Shown here one piece after another: positions 6,213-24,247 of a stretch of 64,000 bases of DNA. The position numbers and the translations under genes are program-made. The DNA lies in IMG/VR virus record IMGVR_UViG_3300008120_005720, positions 22,086 through 86,085 of that record; one strand, written 5' to 3'. Origin of the DNA: a virus. Numbering within the stretch: the first letter of the stretch is position 1; every line of letters begins with the position of its first letter. The notes under the pieces were generated by a model that saw nothing but the letters and a program-made list of their open reading frames with translations, ran no database searches and was not told the DNA's origin.

Positions 6213-6250
6213 GGACAGATAGCTCAGTTGGTAGAGCATCGCACTATAAT
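6213..6250 (+). pseudogene. orphan tRNA 5' half
   Basis: GGACAGA acceptor strand, TA, D arm with GCTC/GAGC, anticodon-stem strand TCGCA and loop CTATAAT. Then the sequence passes directly into a complete tRNA-Phe. No 3' half (TGCGA ... TCTGTCC) was found nearby. Either a truncated tRNA or half of a split one. Confidence 0.6.
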
Positions 6251-10525: not shown

Positions 10526-10651
10526 CGGGAGGTAGCCCAATTGGTAGAGGCAGCGGTATTGCAAAAAGTTTAATCTGTTTTAAAGATTAAGTTCAGCAAA
10601 TAAAACGCTAATCGGAACCGCAGAGTGTTAGTTCGAGTCTAACCCTTCCGA
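10526..10651 (+). tRNA. tRNA-Pro (TGG) interrupted by a 52-nt intron-like insertion
   Basis: Acceptor CGGGAGG/CCTTCCG, D stem GCC/GGC, anticodon stem GCGGT/ACCGC and T arm GTTAG/CTAAC are intact. Joining 10561 to 10614 gives loop ATTGGGA, anticodon TGG with G37. C1-G72 and A73 are the Pro pattern, as in the uninterrupted tRNA-Pro at 22334. Other junctions would give TCG or TGC anticodons, so the exact splice sites are inferred. Confidence 0.75.
10562..10613 (+). other. intron-like element (hairpin + TTCAGCAA)
   Basis: Begins CAAAAAG, forms hairpin TTAATCT/AGATTAA, continues GTTCAGCAA and ends near CTAATC. Too short for a group I or II ribozyme. The same features recur at the permuted tRNAs (13481-13789), at 22703 and at 24147. 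Confidence 0.7.
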
Positions 10652-10699: not shown

Positions 10700-11353
10700 A
10701 TGGCAAGGAAACAGAAAACGATTCATTACTTATATAAGACTACTTGTATTATAACAAATAGATATTATATAGGAATGCACAGTACAAATAATCTAGATGA
10801 TGGTTATATGGGAAGTGGAAAAAGATTAAGATATAGCATACGTAAATATGGTGTTGAAAACCATAAAAAAGAGATATTAGAGTTCTTTGATACACGTGAG
10901 TTATTGGTTGAAGCTGAAATAAAAGCAATCAGTGAAGAAATGATTACAGATAACAACTGTATGAATTTAAAAGGCGGTGGTACTGGAGGTTTTATTAATG
11001 AAGAACATAGAAAAAAATTTTTATTGGTTGGATTACAAAATTTAAAAATTAATCAATCTAAACGAATTGAAAATATGAAAAAAACTATGTCTACAGATAA
11101 AATTAAAAATAAGATTAGCGAATCTTTAATTAAATTTTATAATGAAAATGGTAATGTTGGGTTTTTTGCTGGTAAACAACATACTGAGGAATCTAAACAG
11201 AAAATAAGTGAAGCATCTAAAGGTAAAGGTATTGGTGAATCAAACAGTCAATATGGTACTTGTTGGATAACCAAAGATGGTTCGAATAAAAAGATTAAAA
11301 AAGATGACCTTGATATCTACCTAAATAAAGGATGGGTTAAAGGAAGAAAATAA
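10700..11353 (+). CDS. GIY-YIG homing endonuclease (Seg-like) in tRNA array
   Basis: 217 residues. GIY-YIG core HYLYKTT ... RYYIGMHST, then GYMGSGKRLR and a NUMOD3-like stretch (GKQHTEESKQKISEASKGKG). The C-terminal ~40 residues (ESNSQYGTCWITKDGSNKK) are almost identical to the endonuclease at 23352, so the two are recent paralogues placed in the two tRNA arrays. Preceded by CTTG-N19-TATATTTA and the TATTTATA motif. Confidence 0.9.
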   Translation: MARKQKTIHYLYKTTCIITNRYYIGMHSTNNLDDGYMGSGKRLRYSIRKYGVENHKKEILEFFDTRELLVEAEIKAISEEMITDNNCMNLKGGGTGGFINEEHRKKFLLVGLQNLKINQSKRIENMKKTMSTDKIKNKISESLIKFYNENGNVGFFAGKQHTEESKQKISEASKGKGIGESNSQYGTCWITKDGSNKKIKKDDLDIYLNKGWVKGRK

Positions 11354-11542: not shown

Positions 11543-11677
11543 GTTGCTATGGAGAAATTTGGTAGACTCACTCCACTGACCCGTCTGTAAAGACTAGACT
11601 ACACCTTGTCAAGTGTGGGTGATGGGGTAAACGGGGGTTGTGACATAACACTGTAGGTTCGAATCCTACTGGCAACA
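11543..11677 (+). tRNA. interrupted class II tRNA, probably tRNA-Tyr (GTA)
   Basis: Acceptor GTTGCTA/TGGCAAC and T arm GTAGG/CCTAC are intact. CCCGT (11580-11584), loop CTGTAAA and ACGGG (11631-11635) make a perfect Tyr anticodon arm once 11592-11630 (39 nt) is removed; a 17-nt variable arm follows, as expected for Tyr. GTAAA flanks the insertion on both sides. About 9 extra nt between D arm and anticodon stem are unexplained. Confidence 0.55.
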
Positions 11678-12803: not shown

Positions 12804-13067
12804 ATGGCGACAAAAAGTACACCAGCAAGAAAAGCTTCTGCAAACACAGAAGTAGTTTTAGGACAAGCGGCAGCGCAAATCACTAAAGCTGTTAACGAAT
12901 TGAAAGCTGCTACAGCAACTGTAACAACATTGTCTGAGCAAGCTGACCAATTAACATTGTTAGTAGCTAACAAAGAAGAAGCTATCGCTTCATTAGAAGT
13001 AGAGTACGCTGAGAAACGTAGACAAGCTGACGTTGAGTTAGAATTGTCTTTCAAAGCTAACCAATAA
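12804..13067 (+). CDS. Ala-rich coiled-coil protein, N-terminal part before an in-frame TAA
   Basis: 87 residues, MATKSTPARKAS then long helices (ITKAVNELKAATATVTTL, ASLEVEYAEKRRQADVEL). The frame stays open after the TAA at 13065 as far as 13436 with the same composition, so this is either the N-terminal part of a 210-codon gene made by read-through, or a gene recently broken by a nonsense mutation. Confidence 0.65.
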   Translation: MATKSTPARKASANTEVVLGQAAAQITKAVNELKAATATVTTLSEQADQLTLLVANKEEAIASLEVEYAEKRRQADVELELSFKANQ

Positions 13068-13178
13068 AGAGTTGTTAACGAGTGGTTACGTGCAAACGGA
13101 TACACTTCTATCGCAACAAGTGAATTAACAACTTTACGTTCTGAGTTAGACTCAACTAAAGCTAACACTGAAAACACA

Positions 13179-13436
13179 GTGAAGAAAGAAGTTGCAACAG
13201 TTGCTGCTACTTTGAAATCTCAGTACGAGAATGAAATCAAATTGATTCACTCTGAGAACAAAGCAATCGCTGCTGAGAACGCTGCTAAAATTGGTACATT
13301 AGCAACTCAAAACGAGTTCTTACAAGAACAAGTGACTAAGTTGTATGCACAATTAGATGCAGAGCGTTCAGCTGGTATCGAAAGAGCAAAAGCTGGGTCA
13401 GTAGGTTCAATTAACGTTGCACCAGCTGGTAAGTAA
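13179..13436 (+). CDS. C-terminal part of the same coiled-coil gene (GTG start or read-through)
   Basis: Same reading frame as 12804-13067. The first possible strong start is GTG at 13179, but codons from 13068 on (RVVNEWLRANGYTSIA...) also look coding. Helical, Ala/Glu-rich, ending with GSVGSINVAPAGK. If made alone it is an 85-residue coiled coil. Confidence 0.55.
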   Translation: MKKEVATVAATLKSQYENEIKLIHSENKAIAAENAAKIGTLATQNEFLQEQVTKLYAQLDAERSAGIERAKAGSVGSINVAPAGK

Positions 13437-13480: not shown

Positions 13481-13516
13481 GGGAAAGAAAGATTATTTCA
13501 GCAACAAAAACTGAAT
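13481..13516 (+). other. 3' intron half of permuted tRNA-Asn
   Basis: Contains GGGAA (13481-13485), AAGATTAT (13489-13496) and TTCAGCAA (13497-13504), then a short A-rich link to the 3' exon at 13517. Both helix strands are complementary to the intron half at 13605-13618. Confidence 0.75.
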
Positions 13517-13594
13517 AGGCTGTTAACCTCGTGGTCATGGGTTCGAATCCCATACTGTCCTTAATTGGGCGGTTAGCTCAGCGGATAGAGCACG
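13517..13594 (+). tRNA. circularly permuted tRNA-Asn (GTT)
   Basis: 3' exon 13517-13561 (AGG, loop CTGTTAA, CCTCG, T arm ATGGG/CCCAT, ACTGTCC, T) lies upstream of 5' exon 13567-13594 (GGGCGGT, D arm GCTC/GAGC, A, CG), with a 5-nt spacer. Rejoined, the acceptor GGGCGGT/ACTGTCC has seven pairs (three G-T) and the anticodon stem becomes CGAGG/CCTCG, so the join falls between positions 28 and 29. No part of the cloverleaf is missing. Confidence 0.85.
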
Positions 13595-13620
13595 TATCAA
13601 AAAAGTAATCTTGTTCCCCC
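13595..13620 (+). other. 5' intron half of permuted tRNA-Asn
   Basis: TATCAAAAAAG, then GTAATCTT (13605-13612) and TTCCC (13614-13618). These pair with AAGATTAT and GGGAA upstream of the 3' exon, bringing the two ends of the precursor together. Confidence 0.75.
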
Positions 13621-13643: not shown

Positions 13644-13681
13644 GAGTAATTAAAAGATTGTTTCAGCAAGTTAACTAAAAA
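13644..13681 (+). other. 3' intron half of second permuted tRNA
   Basis: GAGTA (13644-13648), AAGATTG (13654-13660), TTCAGCAA (13662-13669). AAGATTG matches CAATCTT at 13776-13782 of its own partner, while the Asn locus has AAGATTA with TAATCTT. A competing hairpin CTCTGT/ACAGAG overlaps its left end. Confidence 0.75.
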
Positions 13682-13765
13682 TTTGTATAGATAACAAAGG
13701 GACTGGGTTCGAATCCCAGCATGTCCTAAAACAGAGGTAGGGGCGTGTGGTGTAAGGGTAGCACA
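13682..13765 (+). tRNA. second circularly permuted tRNA (isotype unclear)
   Basis: 3' exon about 13682-13727 (anticodon arm TTTGT/ACAAA with loop ATAGATA, T arm CTGGG/CCCAG, CATGTCC, T) precedes 5' exon about 13741-13765 (GGGCGTG, D arm GTGT/GCAC). GGGCGTG/CATGTCC gives seven pairs. By position the anticodon is AGA, odd for a tRNA without a long variable arm, so the exact join or identity is uncertain. Spacer 13 nt. Confidence 0.75.
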
Positions 13766-13789
13766 AAAAAAAGGGCAATCTTGGTACTC
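13766..13789 (+). other. 5' intron half of second permuted tRNA
   Basis: A run of A, then CAATCTT (13776-13782) and TACTC (13785-13789), complementary to AAGATTG and GAGTA upstream. The next tRNA starts 4 nt later. Confidence 0.7.
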
Positions 13790-13866: not shown

Positions 13867-13964
13867 AAGAACAAACTAGTGTTAGTTCAATTATTGCGGT
13901 TTGTAACCGTAGGTTGAATGAGATTGTGGCCACAATGGGTAAATTCCCACTAGTCTCTGTTCTT
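13867..13964 (+). other. tRNA-like cruciform RNA (decayed tRNA-Thr?)
   Basis: AAGAACA/TGTTCTT and ACTAGTG/CACTAGT close a branched fold. Inside are TTCAA/TTGAA with CGGTT/AACCG around TGT (a Thr-like loop TTTGTAA), and the palindrome TTGTGGCCACAA. The T arm (TGGGTAAATTCCCA) lacks TTC, so it is not a standard tRNA. Confidence 0.45.
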
Positions 13965-14032
13965 CTTATTTTCTTTGTTTAGTAAAACAAAGTGGTGGAT
14001 GCTCGGAGGTTAAACTCTCGGCCCAAAAGGAT

Positions 14033-14109
14033 TGGACAGTAGTATAATGGTATTACGCTCTGCGGTACGTACAAAGAGTGAGATAGTGGTTCGAATCCAC
14101 TCTGTTTCA
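14033..14109 (+). tRNA. tRNA with 13-nt anticodon loop
   Basis: TGGACAG pairs with CTGTTTC except for a T-C at 1-72; the D arm and T arm AGTGG/CCACT are normal. GCTCT/AGAGT closes the loop GCGGTACGTACAA, six bases longer than normal and containing the tandem GTACGTAC. Anticodon cannot be assigned; a mini-intron is possible. Confidence 0.65.
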
Positions 14110-14137
14110 ACAATGTTTTATTATTAAAATGTTTTAA

Positions 14138-18604: not shown

Positions 18605-18634
18605 AGTCCCTAGCGTTTGTTAGGGGCTTTTTTT
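18605..18634 (+). terminator. intrinsic terminator
   Basis: AGTCCCTA (18605-18612) pairs with TAGGGGCT (18621-18628), followed by T7. Separates the very long OmpA-domain message from the permease gene. Confidence 0.85.
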
Positions 18635-18655
18635 AAACTTTTAAAAAATAAAAAT

Positions 18656-19426
18656 ATGAAAAATTTAATAAAACCATTTCAAGATTTAAAAGGTACTTCT
18701 AAAGGTACTATTATGTTAGGTTGGTTAGTAGCTATATTGGTGTTTTGGACACTAAATATGTTTGGAACATCACATATGTTCCCAACACCAACACAAGTTA
18801 TTCATGGGTTTGGAGATTTATGGGCTGAAGGGTTAGTAGTTCACATTGTTAGTTCAATCGCTTTATGTGCACACGCTGTGTTCTTATCAGTGATTATCTC
18901 ATTGGTTATTGCATATTCAACAGCAATTCCAATTATGAAGCCAGTAGGAACGTTTATATCCAAATTAAGATATCTTCCATTGACTGGTATTGCTTTCTAT
19001 TTAGCAATTATCATCAACGATGCTAGAAGTCTTCAAGTATGGGTGCTTGTAGTGTTCATGACAACGTTTCTAACGACATCTCTTATCCAAATGATACAAG
19101 ACATCCCCAAAGAAGAATTGGACCACGCAAAAACGCTAGGATGCAATCGTTGGGAGATTCTATGGGAAGTAGTTATCAAAGGTAGATTAGATTATGTGTT
19201 AGAGTTGGTAAGACAAAACTTAGCAATTGTTTGGATGATGCTTGTAACGGTTGAATCTATATTAGCAGCTGCTGGTGGTATGGGATTCTTAATTAAAAAT
19301 AGTGATAAATTGGGTGACAATGGTAGAGTAATTGCACTACAAATAATAATAGTTGTTGTAGGGTTATCGTTAGACTTTATCATCACTAAATTACGTAAGT
19401 TGATATTCAGATATTCAAACTATTAA
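18656..19426 (+). CDS. ABC transporter permease (SsuC/TauC/NrtB-like)
   Basis: 256 residues from ATG 18656. About six hydrophobic segments. The cytoplasmic EAA loop typical of binding-protein-dependent permeases is visible near residue 160 (EELDHAKTLGCNRWEILWEV). Upstream motif FPTPTQVIHGF matches the P(S/T)P periplasmic start seen in nitrate/sulfonate/taurine permeases. Works with the ATPase at 19703 and probably the binding/OmpA protein at 16798. ABC importers are very unusual in phages. Confidence 0.9.
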   Translation: MKNLIKPFQDLKGTSKGTIMLGWLVAILVFWTLNMFGTSHMFPTPTQVIHGFGDLWAEGLVVHIVSSIALCAHAVFLSVIISLVIAYSTAIPIMKPVGTFISKLRYLPLTGIAFYLAIIINDARSLQVWVLVVFMTTFLTTSLIQMIQDIPKEELDHAKTLGCNRWEILWEVVIKGRLDYVLELVRQNLAIVWMMLVTVESILAAAGGMGFLIKNSDKLGDNGRVIALQIIIVVVGLSLDFIITKLRKLIFRYSNY

Positions 19427-19428
19427 AT

Positions 19429-19701
19429 ATGAAAAATGAAATTATAACAATAGATGAATTAAAAGTATTGTTATGGGATAATAAAGATTTAATTCATGAT
19501 AAAAGAACGTATGAAGCTGATTTAATATTTAATGAAATTGGTGAAGTTATGAAAAGTAGGTATAATATTGAAAGTGATTATCTTAATGACATTATTGAAA
19601 GATATTATAAATATTCAGATAAACCAGTTCCCACAACATCATTAGTAACTGATAAACCAAAAAATAAGTTTTTAATTTTAGCATCTAAAAAAAGAAAATA
19701 A
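19429..19701 (+). CDS. small hypothetical protein between ABC permease and ATPase (90 aa)
   Basis: Acidic helical N-terminal part (ITIDELKVLLWDNKDLIHD) and a basic tail (FLILASKKRK). Sits 2 bp after the permease and 1 bp before the ATPase, so it is part of the transporter operon, but no domain is recognised. Confidence 0.55.
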   Translation: MKNEIITIDELKVLLWDNKDLIHDKRTYEADLIFNEIGEVMKSRYNIESDYLNDIIERYYKYSDKPVPTTSLVTDKPKNKFLILASKKRK

Positions 19702-19702
19702 T

Positions 19703-20524
19703 ATGAGTTATAGAGAACAAGATACAATATTATATGTTGATAACATTAGTGTTGGATATGAAGGGAAAACAATTCTTAAAGATGTTTCAATCATTGAGAA
19801 AAACATAGTAAGAGATGGTCACGCATCTACTGGCCAAACAATTGCTGTGTTAGGTCGTTCTGGTAGAGGTAAATCTACTTTGTTCAGAGCGTTGACTGGA
19901 TTGGTTAAACCAATGTCTGGTCAGATTTTGATTAGTGACATGAGTACTGAAGTTGCAGACGATGCTAAAGTGTTAGCTGAGGGTGATGTAGGGTTTGTGG
20001 ACCAAAAATACACGTTGTTTAGACATAAAACAGTGTATCAAATTTGTCAATATGCTTTGAGAAAAAGCAAAGCAACAAAGGAAGAAAAAGATAAGTTGAT
20101 TACTGAGTTTTTGACTGAATGGGGTTTGTTAGAACATAAAGATAAATACTCATGTGAATTATCTGGTGGTCAAAGACAAAGAACAGCAATCATTGAGCAA
20201 ATGTTATCATCTAAACACTTTATGATTTTGGATGAACCATTCTCTGGATTAGATGTTGGGAACATTGAAAAAGTAAAAACATCATTTCAAAAGATTTTGG
20301 ATGCTGATGAATATAATACAATCATATTCTCAACACATGATATCAGATTGGCCGCTGAATTAGCTGACAGTATTTATATTATTGGTAACCCAGAAGGAGT
20401 GACTGATTATTCAACCATATTGAAACACTATGACTTAAAGAAAATGGGCTTAGCGTGGACAAAATATGGTGATGGACATAGAAAATTAGTTGCAGACATA
20501 AAAGAAATTTTATTAAAATCTTAA
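19703..20524 (+). CDS. ABC transporter ATP-binding protein
   Basis: 273 residues. Walker A GRSGRGKST near residue 50, Q loop VDQKYTLFRH, signature LSGGQRQR near 152, Walker B MILDEPFSGLD and H loop STHD. All catalytic residues are present, so it is probably an active ATPase of the SsuB/TauB/NrtD class. Partner of the permease at 18656. Confidence 0.93.
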   Translation: MSYREQDTILYVDNISVGYEGKTILKDVSIIEKNIVRDGHASTGQTIAVLGRSGRGKSTLFRALTGLVKPMSGQILISDMSTEVADDAKVLAEGDVGFVDQKYTLFRHKTVYQICQYALRKSKATKEEKDKLITEFLTEWGLLEHKDKYSCELSGGQRQRTAIIEQMLSSKHFMILDEPFSGLDVGNIEKVKTSFQKILDADEYNTIIFSTHDIRLAAELADSIYIIGNPEGVTDYSTILKHYDLKKMGLAWTKYGDGHRKLVADIKEILLKS

Positions 20525-22702: not shown

Positions 22703-22767
22703 AAGATAGTTTCAGCAAATTACCAAACATCAAACTTTTATTTTGACACGTAACATACTATCTTGTT
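22703..22767 (+). other. intron-like element without tRNA exons
   Basis: AAGATAGT (22703-22710) followed by TTCAGCAA, 38 nt, then ACTATCTT (22757-22764) and GTT. Same order as in the permuted tRNA genes (3' half first), with an 8-bp perfect helix, but only AT-rich sequence between. Located at the very 5' end of a promoter-driven transcript. Confidence 0.6.
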
Positions 22768-23351: not shown

Positions 23352-24023
23352 ATGGCGAGGAAAGAAAAAAAGTATCATTTTATATATAAAACTACTAATA
23401 TATTAAGTGGTAGATATTATATAGGAATGCATAGTACCGATAGTCTAGATGATGGATATTTAGGTAGTGGGAATAGATTGAGGTTAGCTATTAGAAAACA
23501 TGGCAAATCAAATTTCAAGCGAGAAATTTTAGAATTTTGTGAAACTAGAGCCGATTTGAAAAAAAGAGAAAAAGAAATCGTTACTTTAGATGAAATAGCA
23601 AAAGATGAGTGTATGAATTTAGTTGTTGGTGGTGAAGGAGGGTTTATATCCGAAGACGGTGTAAAGTTAGGTAGGGTTAAATGTGATGAAAAACTAAAAG
23701 AAAAGTATGGTGAAAAATTTAAAATTGTAATTATTAAAAATTACCATTCAAATTTAACTGAAGAAGAAAAGTTGATTAGAGGTAAGAATATTAGTAATGG
23801 TCAAAAACATTCTGGTTTTGATTTTGGTTCACCATTTAGAGGTAAAAATCATTCTGACCAAACTAAAAAGAAAATGTCTGAATCATCTAAAGGTAAAGGT
23901 ATTGGTGAATCAAACAGTCAATATGGTACATGTTGGATAACTAAGGATGGTTCTAATAAGAAGATTAAGAAAGAAGAGTTAGACACATACCTAAACGAAG
24001 GTTGGGTTAAAGGAAGAAAATAA
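23352..24023 (+). CDS. GIY-YIG homing endonuclease (Seg-like), paralogue of 10700
   Basis: 223 residues. GIY-YIG core FIYKTTNILSGRYYIGMHST, GYLGSGNRLR, central helices, NUMOD3-like GKNHSDQTKKKMSESSKGKG and a C-terminal ESNSQYGTCWITKDGSNKK nearly identical to the protein at 10700. Located between tRNA-Gly and an interrupted tRNA-Tyr. Upstream ATATTTATA. Confidence 0.9.
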   Translation: MARKEKKYHFIYKTTNILSGRYYIGMHSTDSLDDGYLGSGNRLRLAIRKHGKSNFKREILEFCETRADLKKREKEIVTLDEIAKDECMNLVVGGEGGFISEDGVKLGRVKCDEKLKEKYGEKFKIVIIKNYHSNLTEEEKLIRGKNISNGQKHSGFDFGSPFRGKNHSDQTKKKMSESSKGKGIGESNSQYGTCWITKDGSNKKIKKEELDTYLNEGWVKGRK

Positions 24024-24120: not shown

Positions 24121-24247
24121 GGGGGTGTTGAAATGTTAGATAAATCACATTCTGCCTTTTAGATTAAAGAATGTTTGCAGCAAAATCAAAATTATTCACG
24201 CAAACTGTAAATTTGATAAAACGTTGGTGCAATTCCAGCCGCCCCCA
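24121..24247 (+). tRNA. interrupted tRNA-Tyr (GTA) carrying the intron-like element
   Basis: Acceptor GGGGGTG/CGCCCCC, T arm GTTGG/CCAGC with T loop TGCAATT, and anticodon arm CAAA-CTGTAAA-TTTG are recognisable. Between D arm and anticodon arm lies an insertion of about 51 nt with ACATTC/GAATGT (24147-24152 with 24169-24174) and TTGCAGCAA, the element of 10562 with a compensated stem. TCAC occurs at both borders. Exact junctions uncertain; variable arm short for Tyr. Confidence 0.6.

Follow-up and report, generated by a model that had tools for sequence, protein, structure and literature searches.

A phage RNA family with a covarying terminal stem, a C-A-G-C-A-A core, and anticodon arms or permuted tRNAs as inserts

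Five sites in the tRNA region of a virus record (86,085 bases), all within the window (the whole stretch of 64,000 nucleotides analysed here), had been taken for carriers of a short intron-like motif. They are members of one RNA family and not ordinary introns. A covarying terminal stem, whose two strands are called b and b′, adjoins a C-A-G-C-A-A core; the inserts are anticodon arms or tRNAs, the latter in permuted copies having an acceptor stem that pairs, and the anatomy of the whole is like that of the Class I RNAs of dictyostelid amoebas. On this basis it is slightly more probable than not that this Class I-like scaffold is kept in the mature RNA and displays anticodon arms.

Five elements in the window

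The recurrent motif described by the first-pass annotation, TTCAGCAA, is present exactly at four of the five sites, the fifth (24147) having TTGCAGCAA, a variant also present in relatives; on both strands of the window TTCAGCAA is found 13 times as against 3.07 expected from shuffles. The stems do pair while differing in sequence, as that annotation had stated, and its denial of a group I or group II intron agrees with the gathering-level Rfam matches in the window, which are to tRNAs only. As proof of covariation five sites are too few, and it is the relatives that supply it. What must be abandoned is the picture of a hairpin between two exons at 13489, 13654 and 22703, where the motif-side strand lies upstream and its partner downstream (13606–13612, 13776–13782 and 22757–22764, respectively), so that the stem holds together the two ends of an RNA. 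Within it lie the 3′ half and then the 5′ half of a tRNA at 13489 and 13654, and one Lys(UUU) anticodon arm at 22703. The new intron class does not survive in the form proposed, the stem being the terminal stem of an RNA at three of the five sites and most relatives being minimal or permuted tRNA-like RNAs. ARAGORN calls none of the five as a tRNA, and Rfam at gathering level sees a single one, 10526, which it takes for a tRNA bearing an insert.

The first permuted tRNA-like RNA (13481–13618, on the plus strand like the other four elements of the window) has the anticodon GUU and is supported by the acceptor covariation of its relatives. An outer helix (GGGAA 13481–13485 / TTCCC 13614–13618) surrounds b (AAGATTA, 13489–13495), TTTCAGCAA (13496–13504), the anticodon arm (AGG-CUGUUAA-CCU, 13517–13531), the T arm with the acceptor 3′ strand (13532–13560), a six-base linker (13561–13566) and the acceptor 5′ strand with the D arm (13567–13594), after which come GCACG, an A-rich stretch, b′ (TAATCTT, 13606–13612) and a G (13613). 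The acceptor strands, ACTGTCC (3′) and GGGCGGT (5′), pair with one another, which makes this a permuted tRNA that b and b′ close at its ends. The second permuted RNA (13654–13783), of which an identical copy exists in locus L048, consists of b (AAGATTG, 13654–13660), TTTCAGCAA (13661–13669), an anticodon arm (13682–13698), the T arm with the acceptor 3′ strand (13699–13726), a linker (13727–13740), the acceptor 5′ strand with the D arm (13741–13765), b′ (CAATCTT, 13776–13782) and G (13783).

The minimal element (22703–22766) is reduced to b (AAGATAGT, 22703–22710), TTCAGCAA (22711–22718), a Lys(UUU)-type anticodon arm (TCAAA-CTTTTAT-TTTGA, 22730–22746), b′ (ACTATCTT, 22757–22764) and G (22765); it is matched by R1, the covariance model described below, with 62.9 bits (E = 2.9e-14), its own row being within the R1 training alignment. 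The genes at 10526–10650 and 24121–24246 alone keep the order of the tRNA halves normal, on either side of a b′/b hairpin, and represent the same fold with its opening at the acceptor. In the former, which Rfam matches as tRNA with 42.8 bits over 10526–10651, b′ (TTAATCT, 10570–10576) and G (10577) precede b (AGATTAA, 10584–10590) and GTTCAGCAA (10591–10599); a short helix is possible between ATTGC (10558–10562) and GCTAAT (10607–10612), and removal of the arm would give the anticodon UCG. In the latter, b′ (ACATTCT, 24147–24153), G (24154), b (AGAATGT, 24168–24174) and TTGCAGCAA (24175–24183) are followed by a Tyr(GUA)-type anticodon arm (24201–24215) and by the T arm with the acceptor 3′ strand (24222–24246).

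Other features of the window include a related pair of GIY-YIG/NUMOD3 homing endonuclease genes (10700–11353 and 23352–24023) that adjoin element-bearing tRNA-like genes, and a tRNA-like gene (11543–11676) that has a long variable arm and an anticodon arm which appears by eye to be broken by ~60 bases lacking the C-A-G-C-A-A core. Neither this gene nor the tRNA-like sequences with odd anticodon regions at 13880–13970 and 14030–14110, kept in the relative L017, receive an ARAGORN call. At 6213–6250 a tRNA 5′ half runs straight into a full tRNA-Phe gene. An in-frame TAA (13065–13067) lies within the open reading frame 12804–13436, at a place where L017 is open, so that it would be either a nonsense change of recent date or a case of recoding. 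The region 18617–20524 encodes the permease and the ATPase of an ABC transporter, which are unusual for a phage, and 588–1781 a nucleotidyltransferase of phrog_388, possibly an RNA-repair enzyme.

Stem, core and inserts in the relatives

Searches with patterns and with a model show that the element recurs in many other phage records. At least 310 distinct candidates having the stem followed by G, some of them chance members, were collected from at least 193 loci besides the window, mostly from IMG/VR, to which GTDB, named phage records and record searches added a few, after removal of duplicates by inner sequence and exclusion of the window copies (L001–L003); 160 of them have an insert shorter than 60 nt (minis) and 107 a T loop, the minis with an anticodon arm having surfaced only once a T loop was no longer required. 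R1, built from 47 minis (set A1) picked by eye for similar spacing among 72 mini references, gives, with the training copies counted, at least 224 matches from 100 sources. With the number of candidates scored limited to 150 per record, it matches 17 of 19 records, many of which are fragments, and finds nothing in T4 or in G005. The T4 RNAs rnaC and rnaD were rejected as relatives, their sequences being devoid of the motif and R1 finding nothing in that phage.

That the stem belongs to the motif can be deduced from controls. Where the motif accompanies a T loop in the loci examined, an exact 7-nt partner lies downstream at 69 of 126 distinct places, compared to 2 of 58 where the reversed motif does so, and one of the two bases that follow this partner is G at 67 of the former and none of the latter, places too close to a locus end having been excluded from both sets. 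With seven control words an exact 7-nt stem occurs in 2–10% of cases and a stem with G in 1–4%. Relatives found with the motif and T-loop pattern have stems as different as AGGTTCT/AGAACCT, AAGACGC/GCGTCTT and GAATGGT/ACCATTC. The C, G, C and A of the core are present in 64 of 64 R1 matches that lie outside the search pattern, R1 having been built from exact-motif copies.

The minis have a median length of 60 nt and a GC content of 0.32. Their genomic start and end letters, which are partly set by the search patterns, are A first (150 of 157), G second (155 of 157) and, behind b′, U after the G (142 of 157); the base preceding AG is T in 137 of 157, again partly through the pattern. Among 47 minis with other stems 40 start with AG and 37 have GU after b′. 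A stem of at least 5 bp with a 7-nt loop is found in 105 of 159 minis (25.3 after shuffling), and in 53 the loop obeys the tRNA rule Y32-U33-R37-A38 (1.4 after shuffling, maximum 4), as does the loop of 32 of the 107 T-loop copies (1.3 after shuffling). A 9-nt loop closed by 4 pairs is also enriched (129 of 159 vs. 58.7), in part because it is contained in the 5-bp stem with a 7-nt loop. In the covariation set of 47 minis, for which the b stem and the arm had been selected, a 3-bp inner helix that had not been selected for is paired in 82% of cells.

The anticodons of the 53 rule-fitting minis are UUU (18), UGU (9), GUU (7), UCU (6), GGA (4), GUA (3) and others. An alignment of 25 T-loop copies, most of which belong to one permuted family, shows the anticodon varying inside an otherwise conserved arm, and three copies (L158, L232 and L203) share a common acceptor while bearing the anticodons ACG, GCG and GGA, respectively; such swapping of anticodons on one body is unlike what charging identity would lead to expect.

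The acceptor stem of the permuted copies, which was never a selection criterion, was analysed in the Asn and Gln groups, each acceptor pair being represented by a single copy (17 of 23 and 26 of 39 copies, respectively). The paired cells are 110 of 119 (92.4%) and 159 of 182 (87.4%), each position showing 3 to 6 types of pair, whereas shuffling of the partners (500 shuffles) yields mean fractions of 0.49 and 0.48 and maxima of 0.64. The linkers between the acceptor strands span 2 to 21 bases in a fixed-length parse, and in the best-pairing parse all six linkers of 4 nt are GNRA tetraloops (GTAA in L014, L217, L245 and L349, GAAA in L143 and L391). This count depends on the parse: the fixed 7-bp one gives other 4-nt linkers, TAAG in L017 and GTTG in L169 (probably misparsed), and some linkers are misparsed in either (L127 in the best-pairing, L169 in the fixed 7-bp parse). 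In L127, L149 and L391 the acceptors are extended into longer hairpins. These short, partly GNRA-capped linkers suggest that the acceptors stay closed and unchargeable, so that capped or extended acceptors would not be aminoacylated unless processed further. Pairing of the linker with upstream sequence is seen in the AGGTT and Gln-type families (GACCA/TGGTC and CCTCT/AGAGG) and was rejected as a general trait, occurring in 23 of 56 copies outside AGGTT as against 23.5 after shuffling.

The elements keep company with tRNA genes: of 288 situated in loci of 3 kb or more, 225 lie within 500 bases of one, as against 760 of 1440 random positions, and 224 of these 225 are on the strand of the nearby gene. 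Cultured carriers are Synechococcus phage BUCT-ZZ01, whose record ON615601.1 has four R1 matches on the minus strand, at 113130, 119467, 122189 and 122248, and Aeromonas phages Aeh1 and phiAS5, in all of which the elements are unannotated. One Aeromonas mini occurs in 13 Aeromonas records, nine of them named as phages; twelve have no annotated feature beneath it and the thirteenth is without any annotation. The cluster of the window has no blastn match among isolate phages, and one pattern run over GTDB genomes yielded six stretches, the sole stem in those loci, elsewhere in L261, looking spurious. Another pattern, for copies in normal order, gave nine stretches of which one lies inside a tRNA. 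BUCT-ZZ01 (L264) also has, at 10990–11286, a tmRNA gene according to Rfam, at a place where no RNA gene is annotated. In the element copies of L128, L134, L138, L143 and L174 the D arm and T arm are adjacent and there is no acceptor stem; the first four are located just 5′ of a likely gene start and may be leader elements and not tRNAs.

Likeness to the dictyostelid Class I RNAs

Kjellin et al. (2021; PMC7919456) describe the Class I RNAs as ~60 nt long with 32–41% GC, starting with AAG and ending with CUGU, with a short stem showing compensatory changes and an 11-nt motif in which T3, C6, C9, A10 and A11 are near invariant. According to the same study the terminal stem is retained in the mature RNA, as indicated by RNA-seq ends, and none is reported outside the dictyostelids. 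In amoebas the partners of these RNAs are RRM proteins.

The phage minis are likewise ~60 nt long with ~32% GC, the tRNA-bearing copies being longer; the phage family too has a covarying stem that joins the two ends, a core C-x-G-C-A-A placed directly after the 5′ strand and facing an A-rich side, a variable middle and several copies per genome. In genomic letters, partly set by the search patterns, most minis start with AG and end with CUGU, but mostly T and not A stands before the AG, the core is in most cases shorter by one base than the amoeba motif, and the middle differs in being an anticodon arm or a tRNA. At the positions corresponding to C6, C9, A10 and A11 the phage C-N-G-C-A-A agrees in 64, 64, 64 and 62 of 64 R1 matches (R1 deriving from exact-motif copies), whereas the T of the Class I motif is less conserved (52 or 39 of 64).

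The Rfam model of the Dictyostelium Class I RNA, RF01414, came up in a permissive Rfam scan of two mini loci, in an alignment spanning the whole model from the terminal stem, CAGCAA and the A-rich side to the CUG end. Over 19 records, with at most 150 candidates scored in each, it gives 23 matches at E ≤ 0.1, distributed in 14 records, about two being expected by chance; 18 coincide with R1 matches, 2 fall on T-loop copies and 3 elsewhere, one of the 23 being located in T4 gene 31.2. At the same limit 4 of 14 control genomes have a match vs. ~1.4 expected. The best score, 34.5 bits, does not reach the gathering cut-off of 41.5, and there is no match on the mini of the window or anywhere in its record. 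Since the curated score is not attained, the phage RNAs are not filed as Class I members and are said only to be built alike. RRM_1 domains are found in none of the 19 phage records and in 2 of 14 control genomes (Synechococcus elongatus and a Bacteroides).

As to origin, the likeness could well be the convergence of an unrelated phage RNA, a premise compatible with display on a scaffold and to which the RF01414 scores, all below gathering, the shorter core and the different middle lend weight. What convergence must account for is the coincidence of independent features, namely second base, end, position of the stem, core, length and GC content, and the placement of 20 of the 23 RF01414 matches on elements. 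That phages of several bacterial groups carry the Class I scaffold itself, acquired by descent or transfer, as a programmable display of anticodon arms or closed permuted tRNAs is a more tentative proposition, to which we would give appreciable but limited credence.

Proposed scaffold display and its alternatives

If the scaffold is displayed as we favour, the RNA would start with AG and its first ~7 nt (b) would pair with its nearly last ~7 nt (b′), followed by G and mostly U, hence a C-U-G-U end; UU-C-A-G-C-A-A would lie directly 3′ of b, opposite the A-rich strand preceding b′, and the variable insert between them would consist of an arm alone (minis, ~60 nt), an arm with a T arm, or a whole permuted tRNA whose acceptor stem is capped by a short loop. 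The scaffold would persist in the mature RNA as it does in the Class I RNAs, the retained terminal stem of which is what favours this reading; a protein might bind the C-A-G-C-A-A side, and the arm may deceive, as bait or mimic, the factors by which anticodon loops are recognised, anticodon-cutting nucleases of the host being the most probable; such a role would explain both the arm-only copies and the changing anticodons. Phage tRNAs are reported or proposed, in two papers (PMC10264068, PMC11555353), to answer tRNA-cutting defences; these too are phage RNAs with an anticodon loop under apparent selection, but they are ordinary tRNAs, whereas the element RNAs are mostly closed mimics or bare arms, which, with their changing anticodons, would suit a bait.

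It is rather unlikely, yet worth serious consideration, above all for the copies in normal order, that the b stem, the C-A-G-C-A-A and the A-rich strand make up a very small intron, excised with joining of the ends, either by a new ribozyme or by an endonuclease together with a phage RNA ligase, so as to yield a linear tRNA from copies in normal order and a covalently closed tRNA or an anticodon-arm circle from permuted ones. Ten copies split in the anticodon loop keep, by eye, tRNA-like positions 34–38, and in this respect fit excision better than display; six of them have U33 opposite, the loops across the gap reading CU/UCCAA (L391), CU/UACAA (L217), CU/UACAC (L375), AU/AUCAA (L014), AU/UCGGA (window) and AU/UAGGA (L017). 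The other four (L186, L320, L137 and L192) would be without U33. Copies of the Asn type would acquire a canonical 5-bp arm on joining, but in many copies the arm is already intact in the unjoined RNA, and the minis would give circles of ~20 nt. A short helix on the junction side resembles, in some types, a bulge-helix-bulge, and a run of at least 3 pairs in that helix is present in 45 of 77 minis vs. 35.4 after shuffling.

The enzymes whose co-occurrence the first-pass annotation had proposed to look for are found in part. Of 18 records 13 have RNA ligase genes, the window's own record among them, in which an Rnl1-type ligase gene lies outside the window (G000:C1:7606-8208); RNA ligases are, however, usual in jumbo phages (PMC7824862), and many large phages are known to have them with no tie to the element. 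The tRNA-splicing endonuclease family (tRNA_int_endo) is found in none of 19 records and RtcB in none of 14. The capped acceptors, moreover, make the permuted product look unchargeable, and the similar Class I RNAs retain their terminal stem when mature (PMC7919456).

Permuted tRNA genes of algae and of an archaeon, as presented by Soma (2014; PMC3978253), have the 3′ half before the 5′ half and a linker joining the acceptor strands, and the phage copies share both, with the 3′ half first and an acceptor stem that pairs. On the other hand, the algal and archaeal genes have a canonical bulge-helix-bulge where the phage copies have the terminal stem and C-A-G-C-A-A, and the phage family includes GNRA-capped or extended acceptors and arm-only copies. 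A permuted order of T arm, capped acceptor and D arm is also common to YrlA (RF02553), and that the phage RNAs are YrlA-type bacterial Y RNAs, i.e., tRNA mimics working with the Ro60/TROVE protein, could be argued from the match of RF02553 to the T-arm to D-arm part of the first permuted copy of the window. This match scores 32.9 bits against a gathering value of 69, TROVE is found in none of 18 phage records, the phage RNAs, unlike YrlA, have an anticodon arm, and the minis have neither T nor D arm, all of which leaves this identity very improbable. Decay of tRNA genes rearranged by homing endonucleases, with stems due to chance, has in its favour the GIY-YIG genes adjoining two sites; the stem, core and acceptor covariation across many phages speaks so strongly against it that we give it hardly any credit.

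In the literature surveyed, mostly outside subscription journals and bioRxiv, no title or abstract opening describes permuted tRNAs or Class I RNAs in phages. If the present reading is true, a large overlooked RNA family would be added to phage genomes, those of cultured phages included, these would be, within that literature, the first permuted tRNA-like genes in phages, and Class I RNAs would no longer be restricted to dictyostelids and would acquire a concrete hypothesis for their variable part. A truly shared scaffold would indicate that the amoeba RNAs serve in the control of tRNA or translation, the function long sought for them, and the reading bears on the answers of phages to tRNA-cutting defences.

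In a further set of copies (L333, L351, L387, L390, L155, L235 and L236) the D arm, or a hairpin replacing it, the anticodon arm and the T arm follow one another, by eye, in normal order, which places the scaffold at the acceptor end.
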